The notes beneath the pieces are model-generated. The model saw only the letters and a program-made list of their open reading frames with translations. It was not told where the DNA came from and made no database searches. From the NCBI GenBank assembly GCA_000310025.1, contig FN649728.1:1456315-1520314 (forward strand): 64,000 nucleotides of DNA, read 5' to 3'. The stretch is from Ectocarpus siliculosus (taxonomy: Eukaryota; Sar; Phaeophyceae; Ectocarpales; Ectocarpaceae). Positions 18,912 through 40,400 of this stretch are shown one piece after another (position 1 is the stretch's first letter; every line of letters starts with the position of its first letter). The translations under genes were made by a program, and so were the position numbers.

Positions 18912-21900
18912 ATGTCGCCAGGGCACGGGGGCCGCAGCCACGGTCATGGCCGCCACGTAAGCTTTGCATTAGTGGCCTTGTTTGCCATGTCGGTGTCGTT
19001 TGGATGCGTTTGAGAGGAAGTGTCGGCAATGAAAGTTTGATTCGTTGTGCCTGTGGGGGCAAGGGGGGGGGGTGGAGTCCTATTTTGCCGCACCTCGTAG
19101 GCAACACACGCTCTGTGCCCCCGCCCCCCTCGGCGTGTTCCGTGTTGCTCCACGACATCTTAGATCGCTCCCTCCTCCCGATCCACGCCTCGCACCATTC
19201 ACCACCATCACTCACTACGACCAACAATACGAAAGTACCCTTTCCTGTGCATATCCCCCTGGTACCTTTCGCACACGGCATCGTAAAAGTGTGACCACAT
19301 ACGAAAAATCCGTTTCCCGTGGATACCGCTTTGTTTGGTATCCTTAGAACACCGCATCATGAAAAACGCAACTGCAAACTAAACAAATGCGCGCAGGACG
19401 ATGACGACGACGCAGAGTGGATGCAACTGCTGAGGCCCAGCGAGTTTCGCGAGGTGCTCGAGATCGACCGGGCCCGCCAGGACGTCGAGCGTCAGATCAT
19501 ACACTCAAACCAGGTACACATTGCGCACCCGCCAACGCCATCATATCTGTGGATTATCCACAGGCAATTGTTGCTACGTGGCAGCGGGGACGAAGAGAGA
19601 TGGATGGCCTTTTGTGCAGGCACTGTCTGCAAACCGTTTTGGGGTATGGGATCTGCGGCGGGTGTTATTTGACGCTGAAGTTTGAAGAACGCCTCCCCGG
19701 CGGCCGGTAATGTTGAAGGACCAAGACGAGGGGGGGTGTTGCAGAACGAGCGGTCAAGGGGTCGCTGGGGGAAGAGGAAGAAGCTCCTCTTGTGTCGTCG
19801 GCGTGTCGTAGTTCCTTCCTGGTAAGATAACTACCACGGTGAGGTCCTTTCCTTATCTTGGTCGAGCTTAGAGTCGCGGTTGTGTGTTTCCTCACGCATT
19901 TGTGTGGGTAGGAATCCAGTTTCGAGACAGAAAAGGCACAATTGAAGCCTTATGGCCGCAGCAGTAGGCCATAGGCGTTCTTGTTTTGTGCTGCTGGGTA
20001 GATTCTTGGCTGCTTGCTTACAGTCAGTGAGCTGTCTTCGTGCGCACCTTGGCTTCGGTCAGCGACACCCTCTTGCTTCGAGTTGTGTTGACCCTGCCCC
20101 GAAACAGTCCCTAGTTGTTTGTCTTGTCTCTCTTCCCTCGGTCGAAAAAACCTTCCACAGACACTTGCCGGATGGCCCCCGTGAATAGGTTCCCTATACC
20201 TATTCTTCTCATTTTCTCCAGTCTCTTGTGTTCTCCCTCGGTTTGTTGGTGCCACGGATCAGCATTGAAGTTCCTTGTGGTATGGTTGCGTACCGTATTC
20301 TCTATTCCCAATGTCGGCTTGAGGTGTACACGTGGTATGTTTTTCGCAGGCCAAGCTTGCGGGCAGATCGGAGGCGGAGAGGAGGGAATGGACTACGAGT
20401 GGCTACGGAATGGCAGGGGTCGGCGCCTCCGCCGCCCGCCGCCGACAAGATGACGTGATGTCCCACCTATACTCCAAGGCATGTATGAATCGGTGTCTGG
20501 GATAAAATCGCGAAGCCGCGCGTGGTGATGGCAATCGTGGGAGGCAGGCTGTTTCAATAAAACCGCGTGATACTTGTTTGCTTTGCAGTTACTGTTGTCT
20601 AGGGCAGATCTACTGTTCGTCTCTGTCCGGTTGCAGTTCGTCGCCATGTTGTCAGCGCGCTACCTCCCAGGAGGATCCGCTTGTCCTGTTTTTTTTTTTT
20701 CTGCCTGTATGACTGCTGTTTATGTTGTGGTTTGGTGTTTCTACCCAGGCTTTTACCACGCGCGTGCCCTTGCCCTCGAGCACAATCTGGCCTCTTCATT
20801 CCACGATCTCCCGGGCATGACCCGACATGCGTCTTCTGCCGTGCCTATAGGCTCACACAGCATGGTCGAGAACACATGCAGAACAACCCCGTCTCTTTTA
20901 ACGCAGGTGTGCGTTTACCGTGGATGACTGCCGTGCTCGCCTCCACCAACCACTCTGGACACTTTTGTCTTGACTAAGCTCGAGGAGTACCTTAACTACT
21001 CCCATGTGTTTCTGGCATTTCTGCCGTGTCACGTTCGATGCTCAAAACACCCAACAGCACGTGGAGGCCAAGACGATTGTGAAACTCCTCCCCGGTCCTG
21101 GAGATGGAGAAAAGTTGGCCCAGCTCCCGTCGCAGAAGACACTGGACTTGGTTGTTGGCTTCCTGTCGGGACCTCTGTGAGTAGTACTGTTGCACAGCAT
21201 GAACCTGTATGTCATATAGTGATGGAAGGTGTTGCCTGCGTTTTCAGCTGTTGCGAAACCATTTTCTAACCCCCGTGAACGTACTCGAGAACGGCTAAGG
21301 CTGTGGAGGCTAGCGGGGCCGAAAAGAGGACCTGCCCTTCTTTCTCAGGACCAGCGACTTGATCTCAACAAATCGGGCAAACACTCTTCAAGGGATTGGG
21401 TACATGGTTATCAAAGTTTCACAAAGGGCTCCTTTCCTTGACGAAGGAATGGCGTCGTCGGTATTGGATAATGTTCCCTCTGGCACACTGCAGCTCCTCC
21501 TATTAGTTGGAACAAATAGCAGGCCTCGACTTTGTCTCGCACAGCGAATGGAGTACGTTTTTTTTGTAGAATGAGAGTTGTTGATTGGATCAAGGCGAGG
21601 ATGGGGCTGGTGACGTGAGCAGAGATACGGTAACGACGCGGAGAACATGAGAATAACAAGGGTAGTCAGGTATGCCACGCGTACAACCCTCCGCCGTTTC
21701 TTCGTCGTCAGACCTGACTGGATGCCCTCATTTCCGTCTTCCCTCCCACCTGAGCCTCCCCGCCATGGAAACCACGCGCCGGGAGTAAACATTTACCCAA
21801 ACCTCGCATCGAACAGGTTCGGCGCAGTGACGATGCTGGTAACCATCGGCTCCGTCGGCATGTACCTGTACGAGACCACCTTCGACGAGCGAGACGACGG

Positions 21901-23989
21901 TGAGACCCTGGCAGGAAGGCAAGCGGGCTTATGTACCAAACTAGTTCGTCGTATGGTATGTGGTCCCGAAAATTGAGCTCTTCAGTGTCAGAAGCAAGGC
22001 TATAATAGGGTATTGAGAATTTGGAGGGGAAGCGATACTGGACTGGAGAAAAAAGGCTAGAACAATAAAAGCAGATATCGACGACGGGCGCATATTCCTT
22101 CGACCCAATCCCGTTTTGTTCCCTCATTTCCGGAGACAACTCATTGGGGTTTCGGCCAGGAGTTGGAAGAGCCGCCTTGTCCGTTTACGCTTGCCCCCAC
22201 CAGTAGGGGAGTCTGGTACAATTCATCCTCCAAATGAATGTCCCCAAGCTTAATTCATCCCATGTGCGTGCCCGACACGATGAAAATCCGCTCGCCAAAG
22301 GTACGGGCGGGGGCGGCTGGTACAAGACCGGGCACGACTACCCCTTCTGGTTTCTCATCGTCGAGGTTTTCCTCATGGCCTTCTTTACGGTGGAGCTGGG
22401 TCTGAGGGCGGTGATGGCTGATCACGACCGCAGCTTTTGGCTGTCGACGGCGAGTCACTGATTTTGTTTTTTGTGTGTGATTTCGTTGCTGCCGTTGCCT
22501 CTGATGATCCTCAAGGCTAGCAGGACGGCTTCCGTGATAGTAGGATGTTGCATAGGGTGCCAAAGACTTTGCACCTGGAAAAAACATTCCGTGGAGATCG
22601 TACGAGAAAGTTCAACCTTCAACAGGCACCTCCCCCCCTTAATAGTGGAGAGTTTTGCTTCCCTGTCGATTCCTGCTTGAAATCCCAGGTTTTCCCCCCA
22701 ACTCCCCATTTCCAACCCCATTCCACAAATGCAACGCACGATACGGTGTGCAGGGCAAGCCTGCTGTCCGTCACGCAGCCTCGTGGCGTTGGCCTATCGT
22801 ATATTTGTTCTGACTCCTCCCCGCCCGGCTGTGAAACGCTGATGCTGTTGTAGCTGTGTCGTCATTGGTGTCAGGAATGCACGTGATATGTAGTTACACT
22901 ATCACCCCCCGCTCCTTAAGGGAGGGCAGACTCTGGCTCTTTTCCCCATACTTTGACCCAACAATAAGAAGAAACAACCTTCCCACCAGAGGAACCTGGA
23001 AATTGATTCTAATATCAGTAGAAGACACCATCAAGAGGCGTCATGCGTGCTGGCACGTTCAGGTTTGCTACTGGAGCCGAAATATCGAAGGTCGCTCGCT
23101 CTCTAAACAGTCCGAAATCTGCGCCGGAACCAAGCGGCATCCAACATTGGTCACAGCCGTGCTCACCGCCACGGACCGTTAACCCCTAAACCGAGGTTGT
23201 CAGCAATAGCTAAAACCCGCATTTCTAGGGATTGGCGTCAGTGGCGGCGAGCACAAGCAGTACAAGACACTTGGGTGTCGGTCCAATTTGCAGAGATTTG
23301 CGGAGATGGTAGGCCGCTACTACGACCCTCGATATCACCACCACAGAAGCAGATTTTAGCGCGCCAACACGCACCCCCCGCTGCTGTAGGATGTCCTCTG
23401 GTGATATAAGTACTACCCACCAGGTTCCTGGCAACACAGAGCTTATTTGAGCGCCTGCCGTTTTGACTGTTGTGACTTGAATTTGGAATAGTGTAATTTT
23501 ATCTTGATTTCAAAGGAGGCGTGTGGAGGTAGACGCGTGAAATGTATGTTTTGAGAAGCCTCTACTGCCGCCCTGCGCGAGAATCAACGATGTCTGTCTT
23601 TCGCGATGCCTTCCGACTGGTCTTGTGCCTCTCGGGTGCCATTTCTGGTGCTCTTGCGTTTGTTTTCATTACTTGTCAGCATCAAAGTTCGTGTTCTGCC
23701 ATCCCTTAAAACAAAGAATGAACCCACAAGCCCGCCGTTGGATGCCGTCCGCCTTTCCCTCATACACGTCTTTCAACACGCAGGAGACGGTGGTAGACAT
23801 TATGTCGGTGGTGCCGTCGGTGCTGTTCGTGGCGTTCGACCTGCGGCTATGGGGGTTCCTGAGGTTCCTGAGGCTGGTTCGCTGGGCCGACGTCGTGACC
23901 ATCTTCAACGGTCGTAGGAGGAACCGGACTCACGAAATGGCGGACAAGAATGCCGCAACTTCAGATGAAACGGCGGAAGGCGTGCTAGC
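18912..23989 (+). other. SLO: Channel exons 1-7: N-terminus and S1-S4
   Basis: Exons: 18912-18956 (tentative), 19397-19513, 20350-20478, 21058-21176, 21817-21899, 22301-22449, 23784-23989. S1 spans the 21176/21817 junction (SGPLFGAVTMLVTIGSVGMY). S2 is in 22301-22449 (FWFLIVEVFLMAFFTVELGL). S3 and S4 are in 23784-23989 (VVDIMSVVPSVLF, then WGFLRFLRLVRWADVVTIF). S4 has arginines in the R-x-x-R-x-x-R spacing of BK. Two junctions use GC donors: GCATGT at 20479 and GCGAGT at 22450. Confidence 0.78.
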
Positions 23990-26900: not shown

Positions 26901-28375
26901 TGATGAAATGGTTGTGTGTCGGGAAAATCTTGAAACTGAAAGCGTGACCCATGCCCGCACGCAGCGTTTACGATTTTTCGAGTCATGTTTTGTTCTCCCC
27001 TCGTCCGTGCTGTCTGTCCCGCCCGCCCACAGACGAAAACGCGAGTCTTTGACGTCAGGCCTCAAGCTGTTGGCGTTCGTGGGCCGGTACGTTCTCGTGT
27101 ACGCCGGGTGTGTGTTTCTACTCAGCAGGGCGGAAGGCGGCATCGAGGTGAGACTGCGCTTCAGCCCATCGCTCCCTACCTCCCCGTAGACACGCGCGGT
27201 TTCTTCCTTTCGTGGATAGTCCCGGAGGCCTTGCTTTTGTTTCCCGCGGTGGTCGCAAATTTGGTGCATCCGATTGGCTGGACCATCTCTTGTTGATTGC
27301 CTCTTGATACGATAGTACTTGCTTGACGGTAGTCCCGGTGGGCGTGCAGCGACAGCGTTTCTCTTCCCGGGCCCCCTGATGTTCCCTATGTTTCCGGTTT
27401 GTCCACGACGACGCTTGTTTCACCAGGATATCTCCGAAGCAGACCCCGAAGAGGCGATTGATTTTACCTCAGCCCTGTACATGGCGGCCACCATGCTGTC
27501 GACGGTGGGAGAAGGGGTATACGGACCCGTTCCCATGTCCCGGGGTGCGCGCTTGGCATCCGCTATCGCCGTGCTGGTGTTCGTGCCCCTCGCTGCCATC
27601 CGGGTGCGTGGGAAGCATTGGTCCGTCTGATTTTCACGAAAAACTGTGCTCTAGTCAACCCATTTGTTGTTTGTGCTCCAGTGAAGTGAGCCTATTAAGG
27701 TCCGACAAGTTGAAGAGTCCGAGGGTAACTAGGCAGCATGTATGTGCTGTGTTGTTCAGTGTTTTGCACATTCGACTCTTTGTTTTACCGGAGACGTTGT
27801 TTGTCTCACAGCGAGGCGTCCCAAGTCACGACAAATCGTCTACAACACGACCCACAGCCCCGCCTGCAACGCAAGCTCCCGGAAGATCCCCTCGGCATCC
27901 CGCTCCCGATACAAAGCGCACCACTGCTGTTCCCATGCGTTGGCACCCTCTTCTTCCCTTCCCCCCCCCGTCCTTCGGGCAAATTAATTGCCGCGCTCGT
28001 CAATCGGAACAAAACAAAATGGAGCGAAGGTGGCCGACGTGATCAAGAACTCGAGCACCGCGCGCACCCCGGCCCGTGCCGTGTCCCTGCCTTCCTCCGT
28101 GCGCGAGAGGCATGTGGTGATGTGCGGATCCGTCAACGCCACGAACCTAAAGGCCAGGCTCCAGGAGATGTTCCACCTGGACCACGGGAACCACAACATC
28201 CGCTGGGTTAGGGTGAGCGAACCCGAAGGATTCGAGCCTTTAGGGAGTTTCAAATCTACCGAAAGTCTTCTTGTCCAGAAAGGCGAGAACGTTGAATTTT
28301 TGTCGCTCAGGGAGTGGGCCAGACCGGGGTTCGTCGCTTTCGCGACGGCGAAAAGTGAATCACCCCTTTTGTGTG

Positions 28376-28408
<33 letters not shown>

Positions 28409-31400
28409 TCATCCCATCTATTCTGGCGCCGGTTTACAGGCCTTTCGGCGCATTGTATGTACCTGACGTATCAGACGGGGTCACACAAGAGGAAGGCCAC
28501 ACAGGCGCTTTGTTCTCTTTTCGTTTTGTTGTTTTACCCCACCTTTCCTCCTGCGGTGCTTGCCTTAGTTTTTTTCGCGAGAAGGGTTCAGCCATCCCTG
28601 TGCCTCGTCGACCGTGAAGCCGAAGTTTGTGTACTCACGACCTAGCATGGTACATCGCTTTTCACAAGTCAAGCGGTACTGAAGTAGTCCAGACGCAAGT
28701 GCAATGTAACCCTCTCTCGAACGTCCCCCCCAAGTGCCACCGGGGCTCTCGCTAGCCATGCTTTGTGGTTGCCAGATTCGTGCGTAGTGTCATCGGGACC
28801 ACGCAACCCTCGAACCAGCCCAACGACATCGATAAACACGCGTGTGTACACCCCGAACGGTAGGTCGCTACTTATTCTGGGTTTGGACCACGCTATGACG
28901 TTAGGATATACATGAAAAATCTTATTCACAACTGCTCCGTGCACTGGCTGGCTGCGGAGTGAACTAGCCCTTCTGGTGTCGACTTCTGGAAAGACTCGGA
29001 CCCACACAGGGAACGTGAGCGAGTATAATGATCGCTGTGTTGTCGCGTCTCTCTTAACAACGTCATGATGGCCGACCACACAGGTGGTGGTGATGTCTCC
29101 GAAGCCTCCAGGCCCTCGCATAGATGCCCTCCTGGAGCACCCACGCTACCGCGGCCGGGTCACCTACCTTCAGGTAGGCGTGGCTGGTGAACCTTAAGCG
29201 CCCGTTGTTGATAAGGGTTTTAGTGTTTGCCCTGTGTTTGGGGTTACGGTGGACGTTGGCGGTGGTGCGTGTTGTTTTAGGGTTAAGGCGGCGGTGCAAG
29301 CAGTCATCCTTCGCCGGCAATGTAATAGCTTTTTCACGTGTCAAGGACCCAGTATTCATTGATCCCGGAACACCCTTGGACGTGCCCGTTGCCACCACGG
29401 AGCCTTGAGCGTGAAATGGATGGTGTTTTTTGTTGAAGCCTCGAACACTTACCTGCGCCGTTTTCTTGTGTCGTTCCGTTCGTTTAACGCTTGTTTTGTT
29501 TTCCTTTCAGGGCTCTCCCCTGCACGACGATAGCCTGCTGAAAGCCCGCGTGGACGACGCTTCCGCCGTCATGGTTCTTGCAGACAAGTGAGAGGGTTAC
29601 CCCCCGAAATATACCCCAACACAGCTAGATGACGGTGTCTGCCCAAACCTCTTCGTGTATCGCCTTGACGCATCTGGGTCCCAGGAACCATGTTTCTCAG
29701 CGGTCGGCCTCGCATTTATTATGTTTCCGAGCTGTGTCGCTGCCGCATCTCCTTGCCATGTCGGAATCAAGGCTTGCGGCTGCTTGCCGGAGGAGCGGAG
29801 AAAAAATTATGGCAAGCAGTGCTTGTGCTTCAAGAACACTCGTTCGATTTGTTTCACCCAGGTCGGTGAACCTCTTTGCCTCTCATCCGCATCCCTCGCC
29901 CGCCTCCTCCCCCATTCCATTTCGCGCCTCTGTTGTGCCCATAGAGCCCCCCCGAGCTCGCACGCGGAGGACATGGGATTGTCCCTGCAAGCGATTTCGG
30001 TCATGACTCACGTCGAGGTGGGGGAGCACTAGCAACATTTAACCGGCCGCGTGTTTTTCCACGTTCGAGATTCGATGCCGGCACTGGGTCTTTTCGCGTG
30101 GTGTGCTTGATCGAAGCGACACTGCTATCGAGTTCCAGCAGGAATCGTGTTCCATCAATAGAGTATTCTACGGAAATGCATCACGAGGTGTCGCAGTGCT
30201 TTCGCTGATCAACGGCTTTAATCCAGGTAGCGCTTTGCGGACTTGCGCGCGAGGCTTGGTGCGCCGTTCATTCTCGTTCGCCGGTCCTTAGCGCTCTTCT
30301 CGACCGCAGCTAGATCATTATTCATGATGCTGTTGGCGTGGTCTAGTAATGACTGCGAGGCGCCCACTCCCGCGCAACGATCGAACGCCTGCAGCTTGAC
30401 CGCAGGCAGGGGTGCGGCCCGAGGCTGCTGGTGGAGCTGGTCGACCCTAACGCCGCGCTGCACCTTCAGGTGCGTGGCGAACGAAGGTCCTGCATTTGTC
30501 AGGGCCGCCGCTGCGGGTTATTCATCGACTTAGGTCGCTGGGCTTATTGTTGGGTTCGGTGATGATGGCGTTATTGTTTACCGCGCTTCCATAGAAGGCG
30601 CTGTTTTCTCGACGTAGGGTCGATTGCTCGTGGAGTGGTCAGGCATCTTGAAATGCTGCTGCACCAGCAACAGCTTCTCAAAGCCAGCAACGAAAAACGA
30701 AGGCTTTGGGTTCCTGATCCGCCATCCGCCTGCCCATATCCGCGCAGCCTCAATGCCAGGTGTTGGGGGAACTGATACCTAGATGAAATCATTTCGGCGC
30801 GTTTATATGGTTGTTTATCTTTGCTTCTGCTGACCACTGTTGCTTTCGCGCGGTTCCGTAAGAGCAGGCTGCCGGCATCAAGCATGTGGTGAGCAGCGCG
30901 CAGGTGAAGCTCAGCGTGCTGGCGCAGTCGTGCCTCTGCCCTGGGTGGGCCGCGGTTGTGGCCAACCTGCTGGAGTCTAGGGCCGCGCTCCCGGCGGAGG
31001 TACAGAGCTGTGTTCTTGTGTCTGTAATAGCTGAGGCGTAGCAGTGAGGCTAAATCGCAGTCGTCAAAGGGCGTTGGCGAGGTCAATTCTCTCTTCGGGG
31101 GTGGCAGCCTTGTTGTTGCTTGGTTGCTCGTTTCGTGAAGAACCGTTGGGGCCCCTTCGCCGTTTGTTGCGCGTGACGTTTCAAGGAATTTCTGCTGCCG
31201 GTGTCATGCAAGTCACATGGTGTATGCGCGAAGTGCGCTATCATGTGGACATCGCCTTGTGTCGTGGTGTGCTTTTTCATACGAACCTGACCGTGCACGA
31301 CACTTGTGCGACACGGATCGTTGAAACGTCTTGAGTCGAGGAATATTATCATCCAAAGGCCTTTCAGCAAAAGTGTCGTGGTCGACGCCGTCACACACAT

Positions 31401-34400
31401 CAAAAATATTAATGTTTACTGCTCTGCAATCGGGGTTCACTGCACATGCCGTCATGTTCGTGAAGAAGTTTCAAGGTGCTGTACTCTTATGCAAGACTGC
31501 GATCACAACGCTTGCCACGGATGCGTTTTTTTCTAGATAGCAAATCATCATGTTCCACCTCACTCGACCATGCGCCACCGCCGCGGTAACTAACTAGCAC
31601 TTAACGATTTGTCTCATAGCGGGCAAACCACTCCCCGAACTTGTGTGTGTTGTCGTCGGTAAAAGGTTCTTCAGCAAGGGTCCTGGCTGGCCGAGTACTA
31701 CGTCGGGGCGAAGAAGACCTTCTACAGCGTCGAGTTCTCTCCGGCATTCACCGGGGTTCTTTTCGGGGATGCCGTCGTGCACATCTTCGAGTACTTCGAG
31801 GTATGGGTGTCAGGCATTGAATTGGGGGGACTAGGCGTTGGGAGCTGTTGTCAACGTACTTACTTTCACGTTCCCAATCAGCATCAGGTGAACAATGTCT
31901 TCGAAAACGGTTTGTCGCGTTCATATTCAGCACCAAGTCCGGCGGCTTAGCATCCGAATGTCCAGCATTGTCTCTCGGGTGATGATGGAGGCGAAAGGAC
32001 ATGCACGACTGTCATCTTTCAGCAGTATCGACCCAACGTTGCTTGAAAACTACAGACGTCAGGCTAATGAAGCGTTGCCATCGTGCCTTCCCTTCTGTCG
32101 TCCCCCTCAAACTCCGGCCTTCGCGTATCAGCTGATTCTGGTGGCAGTGGAGACGAAGCGCCATGGACAGGCCGGGCTGGACGGCGAGTACAACGTGGTC
32201 GTTAACCCCGGCGGGGACTACCGCATCAGCAAGGGTGACCGGGGCTTCCTGCTCGCCGAATCGCAGGTAAGTACATGTGCGGGGGTCGGCACAGATGACA
32301 CCTGAGGACCAAAGAATTATTTCGATACGGTCATCCAGAAATACACTGAGAGCCTGTTCGTGGGCGTGGGACAGTGCTAACGTAGGGAGTGGCTGTAGAG
32401 CAAGCGAGAGGTCATATGCACCGTTGTAGTTTTGCAGTTGGGAGATGGGAACGCTAGAAGAAGGCACTGCAAAGCGGCGCTTGGTTCTCCCTTCCCACTC
32501 CCTCGACATCCTCCCTGAAATCCCGTGGTCTTCCGTCGTGGGGGGACAATCGAAATGCGAGACGACAGGCTGATGCGCGGGTGATCTGGGACTACATGGC
32601 GGAGGACGGGATGGGCGGTGCTATCGACGAGGGTACCGGCCGCCTCAAGGAGCGCTTCAGCAGCCCCGAGGAAGAGGAGGCCCTTGCGATGGAAACGCTC
32701 GGCACCGCGGGGGTAGCCGGCATGGGCCCCGAGGTCAGTCGGTCATTTCCTGCCTTAAGGCAGAGAGTTTTTTGTCAAGCATGTGAATCGTGTTTGCCTT
32801 GATGGATTAGTTTTATTTGGCCATTCTGTTGCGTGGTTAGAGAGGACTATGCCGTCGGCTTGGAAACTCATCCTTAGTGCAGCACCAGTATGCGTGTACA
32901 CCTCGAGGTGCGTTTCGGGTTATTAAACATTGAAGTTCGCGGGTTGATGCGCCTGCCTTCGTAGTTTTTTTTCGTTCGATGCCATCGGTTTAACTCTCTG
33001 CGCCTTAGGTCAGTATGTTTCGTTTTTTCGAAATCCCTTGCCTCACTAGGTTGACATTCACTGCGTGCTGGTGCTGCGGCTGTTGTTGCTGTTGTCGGTG
33101 CCCTATCAGACATTTGTGGACAGCATGGTGTTCAGCCGAACTCTACTGCACTGCCAGAAGAAACTTCCCGATGGACACTCCCCCGACACCGGACTGCTGC
33201 TGGAGTGGGCCAGGCAGTTCCAGGTTTGTATAGTAGATGTTGGTAGGATTTCTACGGTTTCGTCTTTACTTTGGGTTCGAAGGGTGTTCGGGGACGCACA
33301 AGGCTTTGCTCCCGGTCGCGATGAGCGCCTGCCTACCGCATACGACGGGGCCGTCAGACGACCATGCATGTGATGGTGTTCAGTCGTCGCGGCAGCATGC
33401 GTCGGGCTAAAAATCCGTGTAGACAGATGGTGCTTGTAGCTCCGCTGTCATACATCGCACCATCTGAATATGTCTTTTGAGGCTGTGGAATATCGGGAAT
33501 TTGCGAGTCATGTTGTGCGGGGTGGAGACCACAAGGCCTGCTCACGGTGGTTGGTGGATCACCTAGTACCTTCCCAGCTTCCCACGATGCACGTCAAAAC
33601 TCGGCACGATTGGAATAGTTTAGTTCTGTCGATCTCTTGAAGTGCCCCACGCCGGGAATTTATATCTCAGGGCGACCTTCCTCGGATGGAACCGTGAGCT
33701 CCAACCGTTGAGAAAACTGACGGTAGCTGAAAGACTATGGTCGAGCATGGCAACGACCCTTCCCCGCCTGCTTCCTCCTCACCCTCCAGGCGTCGAACGG
33801 CATGAGCGACAAGAAGGTGGTGAGGAAAGTGCTCGCGTCCGCGGGGCTCGAGCCGCCCGTCGCCACGACTCCGGGGTCGAGAGGATACGACGCCCTCGCC
33901 GCCGCCGTGCCCACCAGCAGAACCGCCACTAGCAAGATCTTCGCGTCCGCTCTCGCCAAGAAGCCCAGCAACCATCAATGGGGCAAGCAAGAGATGCTGG
34001 CTCGCCCCGGCGGAAGTGTCGCGGGTGATGCTGCTGCTACCCTGGACCCTTTCGGCAGGCGGCTTCGGAAGGCCGGAGCCCGCGGGGGTCCGGGCGCCCG
34101 CGAGAGGTTCTTGTCGGACGTCATCGACGAGGAGGATTTGAGCCTCGTCAGCCCCTTGCTTGGTCGAGACGAAGGAGGAGATAGAGGTGGAGCCGGAAGA
34201 GCCGGTAGAGGTGAAGGCGACGGAGCTGGCAGAGATAAGGGTGTTGTCGGTGGAGATGAAAGCAAAGCTGGAGGAGGCGACGGAGATGAAGGGGGGGGGC
34301 GAGGGGGGGGTGGAGACGGAGATGAAGGCCAAGCCGGCGGAGTTCATGGAAACGAACGTGGCGACGGCAAAGCTGATGGAGGTGAAGTTGTAGTCGGTGG

Positions 34401-37400
34401 AGATGAAGGCACACCTGGTGGAGGTGATGCGAATGAAGGAGGAGCCGGAGGTAAAGGTGGAGCCGGCGGAGCTGAACGAAAAGCTCGTGGAGATGAACGT
34501 GGAATCAGTGGAGACGAAGTCTTAGCCGGCGGAAGTGATGGAGATGAAGGAACAATCGGTGGAGAGGAAGGTGGAGCCGGTGGAGATGAAGGAAGAGCCC
34601 GTGGAGATAAACGTGGAATCGGTGGAGATGAAAGTCGACCCGGCGGAGATGAAGGTGGAGCCGCGAGAGCCGGTGAAGATGCAGATAGAGCCGGTGAAGC
34701 CAGTGAAGCCAAAGGTGGAGCCGGTAGAGATGAAGGGGAAACCGGTGGAGGCAGTGAAGGTGGAGCCGGTGGCGCCGGCGATGCAGGGTCTGCGTTTGGC
34801 GGTTTCGCAGTCGGCGTGGACCCTGCCAAGCCCGCCGAGCTCACGGAGTACGCGCCCGTTCCTCAACCCCTCGAGGTGTCTGTTGACTGCCTCAGCAGGG
34901 CGTCGTCTGCTGGTTGTTCTTCTGCTCTGTCCGATCCCGCGGTACCCGGCGAGGAAGTGGGAGAGGAAAGGGGGAACGGGAGGGATGGCACGGAAGTGTT
35001 CGGCAACAATGGAAATCATGTTGTCGGGGATAGCTCGGCGATTGACTCTACCCGGGATGCGGAAGGAGCAACAACTGCAGCTAGCAGAGCAGCACCCTGC
35101 ATTGAAATTCCGTCATCTACCAGCTTAGAGCAGCAGCGGCAAGAACAACAAGGGGCTTGGCCTACTTCTTCTGGCAGTGCATCAAACCCCGGCGGCGATG
35201 GTGTCGGGGAACAGGCTGGCCTCTTGACGGTTGAGGAGATAATGTCGGAGCTGAAGGCCGTGGAGGTGATGAGTGTTCTGTTGGACGTTCATGTCGTGTT
35301 TCAACTTTCACTCTCGCACTCGCCATGCCAACCGGAGGCTGGAATGATTCGTTTCTATCTATCAGTACATCTGGATACAACGCACCTGGTACACCTAGAC
35401 AAGAGCTGCAATGCAGAGGGACGAAGCTTTTTCCTCTCGTCTTATGGCCGTGTTCGTCCCTGTTGCTCGTGCTGGTTGTTGTCTCCTGGATAGGTGTCAA
35501 GTCTCACAAGGGACGATGCGTACGACCGTCTCTTGGCCCTCTGCTCGGCCGCTAACACGGCCCGGCTCCCCACACGCCCGGAGTCCGGTGAAACGATCAC
35601 CACTCCCACCACTCCCACCGCCGCCGCCGTTCCAACTGCGGCAACAAACGCGATGATGGACAACGCGCGCCTAGTTGCCGAGGCAGGGGACGGAGGTGGC
35701 ACACCTACCGCCGCAGCCGCAGCCGCCGCGGCTGCCGCCGCGGCTGCTGCCAGCGCTGCCGCTGCTGCATCCACCGCGACAATGGGGCTGCGTGCGAGTG
35801 TCATTGCTTGCCGTCGGAGAGTTTCCACGGCAAAGCACCTGGTGGGGCACGTCGTTGTGGTGGGCTTCCCTGCGAGGTACAGGACTAAATACGTATATGG
35901 GAATTGTTCGGTGTACTCGTTGCCGTTGTGGTGCCCTCCTGCTGTTGTGATCCTTGCTCGGTTGGCCATGTTTTTGAGAGTCGTGCTTGAACGGGATGTG
36001 GTGCTATGAGGCCCGCCCGTCCCCAGCGCTCCTGGTGCCCTCCTGTTGTTGTAGTCCTTGGTCGTTTCTCATGTTTGAGAATCGTGTTCAAACGGGAGAC
36101 GACACTTTCTGGGACACCCTTTCGTCCGCCTCCAATTTCCCATTAAGACTTGGAGCACACCCTCCCCCGGTGATACGTGATGTCACCTCAGGCCATCGCA
36201 CCTCGAGTGCTTCCTGCGGCCTCTCAAGGGCTGGACCGGGGGCGCCGGCATGGGGGGAGGCCGGGAAGTCGGCGGTGGCGGCGTGCCAGTGGTGCTAGTC
36301 GCCGACGACGTGTCCAGGCTGGAGTCCGCCCTCGAGGTGGTCGATAGACATGGCTACGTGAACACCAGCGAGGTAATTTCTCTCGCTTGATACCGGCCGG
36401 GCGATGGTCGATGCTAACGTAGTTGTCAGCATCTTCAGATGTGCGAGAGGTGACACTCCTTTCTACGCTTGATGGCAGATGTAGCGGCGGGCGAAGGTGA
36501 TAGGTTTCGCTGGCCGCCGAACACGGCGAATGCTAGCCGCCGCTAGCGGCGTAATGCCAGTGCTTTGTTTGCACTCTACCCCCATGAAAAGGCACCAAAA
36601 CGTCCAAATACCTGCAAGACCCATCTCACCGGCGAATGACGCTGGATCACCGCGGGTACCCTGTTTTGGTGTGGGTTATGTTTTTCGTCCCGAAGGGCTT
36701 GACGATATTGTATGCATGTCTTTCTTTTATGTTGGGGTCGTCTTTTTGCTTGGTGCTTCTCCTCGTGCTGCCGTTTGACAGGTTTACCTCTTCGAGGGCT
36801 CGCCGGTCAGTCGGACGGATCTGGAGAACGCCGGCGTGCGCACTGCCAAGGCTGTCCTCGTCATGAAAGATTCCAAGTAAGCCCACCCGCCAACATGCAC
36901 TGGGGCACGTGAATAAGTGGCCACTGCCACTGCGGGGCGCAAGGGGGTTAGAGAGGGAAGGCCTTGCTGACGTTGCAGGGAGGATCAGGTCCAAGGGGTA
37001 GGGAGAACTTGAACGAGCGAGAAAAAACAACAGTGACCGATGATGGCCATCATTGCCTCACGGGGACCCGTTACTGTCGTGCGAAATACATCGCAGCAGC
37101 GGAGGGAGACAGGTGTTTATTGCAAGGACTTGGTAAGACATGATGCATAGAGACGCCGTCAATGGGGGACGTATCTCACAGCAACAGCCTAACGTTGAAG
37201 CCTTCAGCTACACAACATCGAGCAAAATTCCACGCCCGAAAACCTGGCAATCTTTTGCACAACCTCACTACATGTCTGCCATTCGTCGGACAAACGCTTC
37301 CTTTTGCCCGTTAATGATCCCATTCCCGTTGACAGGAGCACGAGATTCAACTATGGAGGGTCGGGAGACCCGCTTCGCGATGCTGAGGCTCTTGTATCGT

Positions 37401-40400
37401 TCATCAAGATGGAGGATGGTCTCCTGTCCGAAGACCAGGTACGATAAGTGGCGACGTGGTTGGCTTTTTTTTCTTCGGTATGGCGGTACATATACCGTAG
37501 GTGTTTTCTTGAGACGATATGCATAGGGCACAAGACACCCTCATCCGACGTTTTTGCGAGTTTGACGTCATGTAGGACTTGGATAGTTTATTGCTGCACC
37601 TGTTGGGGGTATACCAGTCTGTCGTGGGGATGTGGTGTTGTGGCTCAGGTCTCAACATGGACGACGAAGAGACACGGTGCTCGGCAGTGGGTTTCGTGCA
37701 AGCATTATTTCCGACTTGGCAGCAGGACTGCTTTGAACCTTTGGATTGCCCTCACTTGAATTCATCTCGTTCGCACCGCTGGCTAGAGAAGAGTCCGTGT
37801 TGAGTAAACAACTACGACAATGCTGAGAGGCTGGTGCGTGCTGAAGCAACACCAATATTCGCCATCCCGCTCATCTTTTTCACGACTTTTTCTCGCCCCG
37901 TGCTCTCCAACCACAAAGGGCAGTGTTCGTGAACATGGCCGTGGGTGGATATCACTACCGATACATGTTTTTCGTGGTGACCTGCAACCCCTTCTCTTCT
38001 CTGCCTTCAATTGCCGTTCCTCTTGAAATAATAAAAAAATGGTTGCGATTTCGGTTTGCAGCATGTGGTGGTGGAGCTGGAAAGCTCAGCCAACGTCCGC
38101 TTCCTACACGCCCGCGCGGAAGCCAAGAGTCTGAGCGCCATCGTCGCCCTGGGCGGCGCCGGCGCGGGCGGCGCGGCCGACGAGGCGCACTACCTGTGGC
38201 CCAAGTTCGCCGCCGGGATGACCTACAACTCGTCCTTCGTCGACTCTATGTTCGGACAGGCGTTCTACCGCCCCTCTAGGTTTGTCTGCCCTGTACTGTG
38301 TTGTGTTTTTGCGTCGCGCGCGAGCTGTGCGCGATTTCTTCCGAGTTGGAGTACACCCTGTTTTCTCGAGACGTGCGGCTACCCCTCACTCGTTTCTTTG
38401 CTGTTGATGGTGTTGCATTTGTTCTGCGTTCGCGTGTGTGGGATTGGCGGAAGCGTCCCCCCTCCCCCCCGAGAAAATCTAAGGCCCGCGCATGCCTACT
38501 TCGTTATCTGGTTGGTGAGGTGCCGGATATCTCTAGGTTGCTCGTAGGTGCTTTTGATTTGACCCCTTTTTGATTCATCAATTCACGTAGCCGGTAGGCT
38601 GCCCCCCCCCCCCCCCCCGCTGTAAGGGCCTATTACTTTCGGGTCCCCTCTTACCCATGGCTTTGGGCGGGTGGGTGTTTAATAACAAGTGGGGGGGGGC
38701 CCGAAAAAAAATTGGGGAAAAATATGCCCCCCGGGGAAAGGCTAAAAAAGAAAAAATAAGGGAACGAATCATAAAAAAATAATCCTCTTTTGGGGGCAAC
38801 ACCCAAAAGGGCAAAAGCTCCGCCAAACTCCTAACCCGGTTTTCCCCCGTTGGCATGGTTTTTGGTTTTTCCCCCGTTGCCTTTTTTTTTTTTATGGGGG
38901 GGGAAGAAACCCCCCCTTGGGCAACTGGGGGTGGAACAAAAATTTTTGGGCCACCTCCTTTAACAAGGCTCAACTGGCTTAATCTGAACGCCCTTTTGCC
39001 CCTAACAGGAACGCAATTTTGAAATGCCTGGTCCCCTTGGCCCGGGGGGAAAAAGAAGAACAAACGGGGAAGNNNNNNNNNNNNNNNNNNNNNNNNNNNN
39101 NNNNNNNNNNNNNNNNNNNNNNNNNNNNNNNNNNNNNNNNNNNNNNNNNNNNNNNNNNNNNNNNNNNNNNNNTTTTTCCGGGTGGGAGACCCCCCTTTTT
39201 TCCGGAGACGGGGGGCTCCCCCCCCCTGGTTTTTTTGCTGTGAAGGGGGTGCCATTTTTTCGGCGTTCGGGGGGGGGGGATGGGGGAAAGCCCCCCCCCC
39301 CCCCCCCGAAAAAATTTAAGGCCCGCCCAGCCCTATTTCTTTTTTGGGTGGGGGGGGTCCCGGATATTTTTGGGTTGTTGGTAGGTGCTTTTGATTTAAC
39401 CCCTTTTTGGTTCATCAATTCAGGTAGCCGGTAGGCGCCCCCCCCCCCCCCCACCGCTGTACGGCCCTATCACTTCCGGCTCCTCTCTAGCCATGCCTTT
39501 GCGCGGCTGCGTGTTTAGTACCACGTGGCGTGGCGCCTGAGAACAAGCTGGGCAAGAGTATGCCCCCCGTGTACAGTCTAATAACGAACACATAGGCGAG
39601 CGAGTCATAGACGACTACTCCTCTTTGCGGCGCAGCACCCAAAGGCGCAGACGCTCCGCCAATCTCCTATCCTGTTTCTCCGCCGTTGCCATGTTTTTTG
39701 TTTTCTCCGCCGTTGCCTTTTTTTTTTGTATGGTGCGGCACGAATCCTCGCCTTGGTCACGTGGGCGTGTACCAATAGTTCTTGGCCCACCTCCTTTGAC
39801 CATGCCTCACCTGCCTTACTCTGATCGCCCTTTTGCCGCTACCAGGATCGCACTTCTGAATCGCCTGCTCCTCTTGGCCCGGGGGGAACAGCAGGAGCAA
39901 CCGGGGATGGCCTCGCGTTCCCCGCCACAGGTGAAAACAGTGAGACAAGTCGTTCTTTCAAAGCTAAACAGACTCGAGATTATCGTAGAATTCACGGATA
40001 TCATCGGTTTGTGGATCTGACGTAGCCGTTTCCCTTGCCTGTCGTGTACCATCGTGTCGTTCCCTCGGTTTGTGAGTACCGCAAGCAAGTGAGCGAAGGA
40101 ACGCTGTGGTGTCCCGTTACCCATTTCCCGGCAATTAGGCGGTACTGTACCAAGATGCTTTTGTGCATGCTTGCTGCACCCGATTGACGATAGTTTGCTG
40201 GGTAAACAGGTATATTCAGAAGCGTACGTCTGCTACACTTAGACCCCTGATATCGTTCACGTCGAATGATACCCAAGGCTTGCCACGACCGCCCATACTC
40301 GCTGTTTGGGGATTTAGGTGGCTGCAGAAGACCACTACATCGCACTGAGGGTTGTACGGTCGATGTCCAGGCTGTCGTTCTTGGGTTAATGTCGTTGGGC

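Follow-up and report, generated by a model that had tools for sequence, protein, structure and literature searches.

A Slo-type channel gene of Ectocarpus siliculosus that reads TVGEG in its selectivity filter

Results

Exon structure of the gene

The window, a stretch of 64,000 nucleotides of the Ectocarpus siliculosus genome that was analysed as a whole, carries on its + strand a channel gene that we traced from at least position 21817 to at least 38279; the trace stops short of the start codon and of the last part of RCK2. We placed the exon ends manually, guided by splice letters, phase and resemblance to BK; the agreement of phases reported below is therefore partly built in and does not test each junction independently. 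From S1 to the linker between RCK1 and RCK2, 15 exons join into 629 codons with 0 stops and with the frame kept at every junction, and five further stretches of RCK2 join into a single open frame.

The S1 exon (21817-21899; FGAVTMLVTIGSVGMYLYETTF) is an open frame between aacag and gtgaga whose phase fits the next exon; the start codon and any earlier exons lie outside the trace. The S2 exon (22301-22449) is in phase and aligned to BK from WFLIVEV onward; gcgagt was chosen as its donor, and the intron that starts with these letters (22450) seems to be of the GC-AG type. The S3-S4 exon (23784-23989; LRLWGFLRFLRLVRWADVVTIFN) is in phase and follows the BK S3-S4 alignment, and the S5 exon (27033-27147), likewise in phase, aligns to BK in its second half. 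The pore exon (27427-27603) supplies the pore helix, the TVGEG filter and the outer part of S6, and was placed by its translation, its phase and a match to PF07885 (26.2 bits vs. a cut-off of 22.5). The end of S6 and the first strand of RCK1 (RERHVVMCG) share an in-phase exon at 28030-28212 that matches Slo-like_RCK, for which an alternative donor at 28206 also keeps the frame.

RCK1 continues, in phase throughout, in exons at 29084-29173 (VVVMSPKPPGPRIDALLEHPRYRGRVTYLQ; Pfam), 29511-29587 (GSPLHDDSLLKARVDDASAVMVLAD; Pfam), 29945-30017 (APPSSHAEDMGLSLQAISVMTHVE; BK alignment) and 30410-30469, in two exons that match BK_channel_a in Pfam (30868-30999, AAGIKHVVSSAQVKLSVLAQSCL; 31675-31800, GSWLAEYYVGAKKTFYSVEFSPAFTG) and in a C-lobe exon placed by the BK alignment (32132-32266; LILVAVETKRHG to NPGGDYRISKGDRGFLLAESQ). 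Two in-phase linker exons follow (32569-32733 and 33110-33223), and a further, low-complexity linker exon probably lies between 33.8 and 35.3 kb. RCK2 begins with an open frame at 35836-35876 (HLVGHVVVVGFPAR), the 5' end of which was left unset, and runs on in phase through exons at 36192-36372 (HLECFLRPLKG), 36782-36876 (VYLFEGSPVSRTDLENAGV), 37336-37438 and 38062-38279 (HVVVELESSANVRFL to YLWPKFAAGMTYNSSFVDSMFGQAFY); the joined RCK2 matches Slo-like_RCK at 38.4 bits. In the 3' part of the gene there is a gap of 100 N at 39073-39172, flanked by a direct duplication (38336-39900; spacing 836-837 bases, 76-79% ungapped identity) that has the look of a repeat or of two copies poorly joined in the assembly.

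Family assignment

When the joined pieces, one of 628 residues and one of 212, were compared with Pfam, BK_channel_a reached 77.4 bits (cut-off 26.8), Slo-like_RCK appeared once per piece (56.1 bits, and the score given above for RCK2; cut-off 24), and the joined protein also matched Ion_trans (40.6 bits; cut-off 25) and Ion_trans_2 (26.9 bits; cut-off 22.5); no cyclic-nucleotide-binding domain was among the matches of either piece, and so nothing in them indicates descent from CNG channels. The best solved-structure match of the part from S1 to RCK1 was BK alpha (PDB 8v60, E 1.3e-35), and all 30 PDB matches at E ≤1e-5 were BK/Slo-type chains, which together with the six-helix Slo architecture speaks against descent from the NaK family and leaves a likeness in working only. 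As far as it was traced, the gene shows the Slo/BK architecture in order, with S1-S6 including the S4 arginines, the pore and two RCK regions. The original prediction of a Slo-type gene is thus borne out, both by Pfam domains above their cut-offs and by in-phase S1-S6 and RCK exons. On sequence the gene is a Slo-family homologue, and we file it as such rather than as a BK K+ channel because the TVGYG(D) signature is missing.

With BK alpha (PDB 7ynz, 8v60) and KCNT1/Slo2 (8hir) the gene has in common the order of S1-S6, the two RCK regions, BK_channel_a and Slo-like_RCK, and it departs from BK in its filter (STVGEGVYGPVP vs. STVGYGD), in a diverged pore helix and in its calcium sites. At the RCK1 calcium site, where we assume the residue roles, the first acidic residue of BK is unmatched (CADPDAED vs. 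APPSSHAED). The matching RCK2 exon, which reads ANVRFLHARAEAKSLSAIVALGGAG, lacks the aspartate-rich calcium bowl when set beside what we take to be the BK bowl sequence; the bowl is a mark of Slo1, not of all Slo channels.

The filter codons

The pore exon translates without a stop into DISEADPEEAIDFTSALYMAATMLSTVGEGVYGPVPMSRGARLASAIAVLVFVPLAAIR, with accag and gtgcgt at its flanks and phase 0 on either side, and its product comprises the pore helix, filter and outer S6 (IDFTSALYMAATMLSTVGEGVYGPVPMSRGARLASAIAVLVFVPLAAIR). The filter stretch is MLSTVGEGVYGPVP: the segment S-T-V-G-E (27499-27513; TCG ACG GTG GGA GAA) ends on the Glu codon, and what follows ACG GTG GGA is GAA GGG GTA TAC GGA, with GGA at 27508-27510, GAA at 27511-27513, GGG at 27514-27516, GTA at 27517-27519 and TAC at 27520-27522. 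Read contiguously this is TVGEGV; the K+ channel signature TVGYG(D), near-universal and including the Tyr that contributes to K+ selection, is absent, and a NaK-type TVG[D/E]G with both glycines is present.

TVGEG in a Slo-type pore exon, as originally predicted, is therefore confirmed in the letters of the assembly, within one in-phase exon. Three further statements of that prediction stand in part. Its codons (GAA for the filter Tyr, GTA for the Asp) are correct, but that they replace Tyr and Asp holds in only one of two alignments, an insertion, TVG[EGV]YG, fitting about as well; its count of two base changes from Tyr to Glu applies under the substitution reading only; and the exon is in phase as described, but it is not a pore clean except for one residue, the pore helix having diverged as well.

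Other candidates for the filter were considered within the window. With all six frames scanned, the pattern [TSV][VILMT]GxG matched 24 times in open frames 40 residues or longer; only this exon among them was pore-like, and a second pore exon with TVGYG was rejected; the VLGYG match at 19636 has neither Thr-x before the Gly nor an S6-like helix alongside. A tiny intron within the pore exon was also dismissed, since the sole GT-AG option near the filter, judged by eye, spans about 10 bases and breaks the frame.

Other pores and Slo-type paralogues in the genome

The genome searched comprises 189,456,909 bases (492 contigs), and counts taken from it are lower bounds. As a query, the pore exon matched only itself genome-wide, with no second copy. 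The Pfam pore model gave 19 matches at E ≤1, including the window gene, some of which may be two pores from one gene. In 14 of the 18 others the Tyr position could be read within the match, and all 14 read GYG; in three (L022, L024 and L025) the filter is divided by an intron within the Gly77 codon, with Tyr-Gly at the head of the next exon; and one match (L023) ends before the Tyr position and is unreadable. GYG is thus found in 17 of the 18, and the window gene is the sole exception among the readable pores. Two of these pores (L018 and L021) have GYGE and GYGT in place of GYGD.

Three other genes appear to be Slo-type paralogues: A (C3, 2.48 Mb), B (C10, 2.67 Mb) and C (C55, 0.19 Mb), in all of which STVGYGD can be read across introns. 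Their support as Slo-type genes is thinner than that of the window gene: B and C each have a Slo-like_RCK exon above the cut-off, and A has exons below the cut-offs only (BK_channel_a 25.7 bits, Slo-like_RCK 22.7 bits). Among five BK_channel_a exon matches in the genome, the two of the window gene score highest (35.5 and 32.8 bits), followed by that of A and those of B (22.5 and 19.5 bits), with none in C, while for Slo-like_RCK the order is B (34.2 bits), C (30.1 bits), the window gene (27.3 and 22.8 bits) and A; because introns cut the four genes differently, neither order compares them fairly. The window gene is only distantly similar to these paralogues (best tblastn match 42% over 43 residues). 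The original prediction had named, as what would speak against it, close homologues that all carry TVGYG beside a lone deviating and unexpressed copy, and one part of this is found, in that TVGYGD is carried by the three Slo-type paralogues.

Substitution or insertion

Counted by hand on the alignment rows, the loop from STVG to S6 has 13 residues in the window gene vs. 11 in A, B, C, BK, KCNT1 and NaK. Two readings of equal standing would account for this on the sequences compared: either Glu stands for Tyr and Val for Asp, with two residues gained farther out, or a gain of three codons (EGV) separated Gly77 from Tyr78, with loss of the Asp. In the latter case the nine extra bases, GAAGGGGTA, would lie at 27511-27519 (equally 27510-27518), as placed by the alignments and by the intron found at the same codon position in paralogues A and C. 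The first-printed optimal alignments place an EGV insertion before YG for three of the five references (A, B and KCNT1) and align E with Y or D in the other two (BK and NaK), with co-optimal alternatives in the cases of B, BK and NaK. Under constrained gaps, insertion and substitution scored 22 vs. 20 for A, 24 vs. 24 for B and 15 vs. 12 for KCNT1, whereas for NaK substitution prevailed (17 vs. -3 for insertion); the BK score (12 vs. 8) was set aside as the constraint barred the best gap pattern of BK.

Introns bear on the same point. In 3 of the 19 pores (L022, L024/L026 and L025/L054), two of them Slo-type and one elsewhere, an intron interrupts the Gly77 codon after its second base; in A, C and L022 both donor and acceptor are seen, and this is the site of the extra bases in the window gene, a coincidence that we roughly estimate to arise by chance in a few per cent of cases. 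Because the extra bases sit where these pores carry an intron, imprecise intron loss or sliding of a splice site is suggested as their source. Under either reading we infer that the physical filter is best taken as TVGxG with x = Glu, because T-V-G-E-G follows the pore helix with both filter glycines in place.

Pore helix divergence and intactness of the frame

Over the 15 residues of pore helix and filter up to TVG, the window gene shares 7 with each of A, B and C, which share 9-12 among themselves; identity to BK over the same residues is 5 of 15 for the window gene vs. 7-8 for the paralogues. The window gene thus has the most deviant pore helix of the four Slo genes, while both of its RCK regions are still recognisable. 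It lacks the H-D/E-x-L-Y-F pattern of the paralogues and has Met at what we take to be Thr72 in KcsA numbering. Such divergence fits a new selectivity, and fits a loss of conduction too.

We simulated neutral change in the 629-codon frame; among 500 replicates at each level, the frame stayed open in 302 at 0.01 changes per site, 173 at 0.02, 44 at 0.05, 7 at 0.1 and 0 at 0.2. Long-standing decay of the gene is unlikely. The original prediction had argued from intact S4, S5, S6 and both RCK domains that this is no pseudogene; the open, in-phase exons (the RCK regions as far as traced) uphold that argument against an old decayed copy, and recent decay is still compatible with them.

Searches for other TVGEG channels

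A scan of prokaryotic sequence for TTVGEGx[FY]xP returned 26 stretches. Of these, 20 lie in frames 60 residues or longer, and Pfam assigned none of the 20 to an ion-channel family (the other 6 lie in shorter frames); none of the translated flanks of the 26 was taken for a pore; the scan had no positive control and, restricted to TT and a fixed spacing, would miss even the window gene, where Ser precedes TVG. One stretch (L053) is hydrophobic on both sides, but Pfam assigns its frame to a bacterial PH-domain protein. In viral contigs the pattern scan gave 0 matches, and a protein scan gave 14 candidate stretches, 0 of which were confirmed. A literature search for the word TVGEG, with most subscription papers outside its scope, found nothing, and among the matches listed for brown algal, stramenopile, Ectocarpus and protist K+, Slo and RCK channels no such channel was recognised by title or by the start of the abstract; this absence is weak evidence of novelty. 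What the gene seems to present is a known fold and a known filter chemistry in a combination new to us, with no natural TVGEG channel found in these narrow prokaryotic, viral and literature searches.

Discussion

To our knowledge, two natural groups of channels carry an acidic residue at the position of the filter Tyr, NaK and CNGA, and both are non-selective. CNGA channels are gated by cyclic nucleotides and have no RCK domains. In one report, NaK (TVGDGN) is described as non-selective with two ion sites, and its TVGYGD mutant as K+ selective with four (PMC9822992). A NaK chain with TVGEGNFSP is in the PDB (2q6a), presumably the D66E mutant, and according to a TRPA1 paper that substitution changes the filter only slightly (PMC5100928). 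The NaK of Bacillus cereus (PDB 2ahy) and 2q6a resemble the window gene in TVG[D/E]G, where the Tyr78 position is acidic, and in an aromatic residue and Pro thereafter (NFSP in NaK, VYGP here); unlike the window gene, NaK is short (110 residues in 2ahy) and has neither voltage sensor nor RCK, its next residue is Asn rather than Val, and its loop is two residues shorter.

CNGA subunits carry TIGE, and human CNGA4 TVGD, according to PMC10761061, which describes vertebrate CNG channels as non-selective and the CNGA Glu side chains as facing the pore and needed for Ca2+ permeation and block. They are like the window gene in being six-helix eukaryotic channels with Glu at the equivalent filter position, and they are Ca2+-permeable as well as Ca2+-blocked; they are unlike it in lacking the second filter glycine (TIGETPPP). 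NaKTs of Tsukamurella paurometabola offers a further natural non-canonical filter in a Ca2+-dependent non-selective channel, but it is a two-helix channel whose filter reads LPMGNGPLSP and whose Ca2+ site is another one. The residues next to the Glu match none of the precedents (GDGN in NaK, GET in CNGA, GEGV here).

We reasoned that, because the natural groups with an acidic residue there (NaK and CNGA) are non-selective, an altered selectivity is by analogy the most likely consequence of the acidic filter residue. The reading that we tentatively prefer, though at rather modest strength, is that the gene may encode a Slo-gated, non-selective, divalent-sensitive cation channel in which an RCK ring and a voltage sensor are retained. 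An intact Slo-family subunit, with voltage-sensor-like S1-S4, pore and two RCK regions, would have T-V-G-E-G in place of T-V-G-Y-G-D; the TVGxG backbone would still form, given that neither filter glycine is lost, with a ring of four Glu side chains at its outer end. As in NaK, the two outer K+ sites would be lost and the pore would pass Na+ and K+; as in CNGA, Ca2+ and other divalents would be attracted and would either pass or block; and the channel would still open in response to its RCK ring and to membrane voltage. The filter would have arisen by substitution of Tyr by Glu and Asp by Val, or by gain of EGV at the paralogue intron site, pushing the old Tyr-Gly outward. With its longer loop, the outer filter may copy no known one.

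A more specific and bolder version, which we consider unlikely, is that a Slo channel became Ca2+/Na+-permeable when three codons were gained at the ancestral intron site in the Gly77 codon, turning TVGYGD into TVG-EG-VYG and setting a carboxylate ring of the CNG/NaK kind on a voltage-sensing, RCK-gated body. If so, a Ca2+-activated channel would depolarise where BK repolarises, and the loss or sliding of an intron would have rewritten an ion filter.

The same pore could instead belong to a subunit that has given up the ion path and keeps gating ring and voltage sensor for sensing or for assembly with the canonical paralogues, lowering the current of mixed tetramers or changing its selectivity. 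Three TVGYGD Slo-type genes are on hand as partners, and the many changes in the pore helix combined with high BK_channel_a scores would suit such a role; on the other hand, the T, the V and both G of the filter backbone are retained and S5 and S6 are open and hydrophobic, all needless if conduction had been dropped, and co-assembly is doubtful because identity to the paralogues is low. We regard this non-conducting or modulatory role as possible but somewhat unlikely. Were the gene simply losing its function, with constraint relaxed on the pore and the remainder yet undecayed, this would fit the multiple pore helix changes, the single genomic copy of the pore exon and Slo-like_RCK exon scores no better than those of B and C, and the number of replicates still open at 0.02 changes per site leaves room for a recent loss; 20 joined exon stretches without a stop and with splice-like flanks at their joins, albeit at hand-set ends, nevertheless make this rather improbable.

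The remaining two explanations would retain an ordinary K+ channel or remove the anomaly altogether. If the true filter were displaced, TVG-EGV-YG, with three residues bulging out and selectivity kept, one would understand the EGV-insertion alignments of A, B and KCNT1, the 0-3 points by which constrained gaps favour insertion for them, and the introns of A and C at the EGV position. A K+ filter, however, requires T-x-G-Y-G contiguous after the pore helix, and we know of no precedent for a three-residue bulge inside one; the BK and NaK alignments put E over Y or D, NaK favouring substitution by 20 points, and the Asp after YG is absent as well, so that we hold a displaced K+ filter to be very improbable. 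An assembly or consensus error at 27508-27520 might be suspected from the run of four G within the filter codons and from poor stretches of the assembly, namely the N gap and its flanking duplication, but reading frame and splice phases are intact to either side, a slip in the homopolymer would put the sequence out of frame, and restoring TVGYG needs a clean nine-base change; such an error has very little to recommend it.

Under the preferred non-selective reading, cells would gain an inward, depolarising current activated by Ca2+ or a ligand, opposite in sign to that of BK, and in an alga this would bear on the Ca2+-dependent electrical signals of its cells. In NaK to NaK2K mutants, swapping the Tyr-site residue and its neighbour makes a non-selective filter K+ selective (PMC9822992); a natural acidic Slo would amount to the reverse experiment in a eukaryote.

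A minor feature of the gene concerns the stretch between its RCK1 and RCK2 exons, where a 588-codon open frame (33727-35493) with a high content of Gly, Asp, Glu and Ala contains diverged tandem repeats with periods of 21 to 114 (34454-34730); this frame probably encodes an extended linker of low complexity in the channel.
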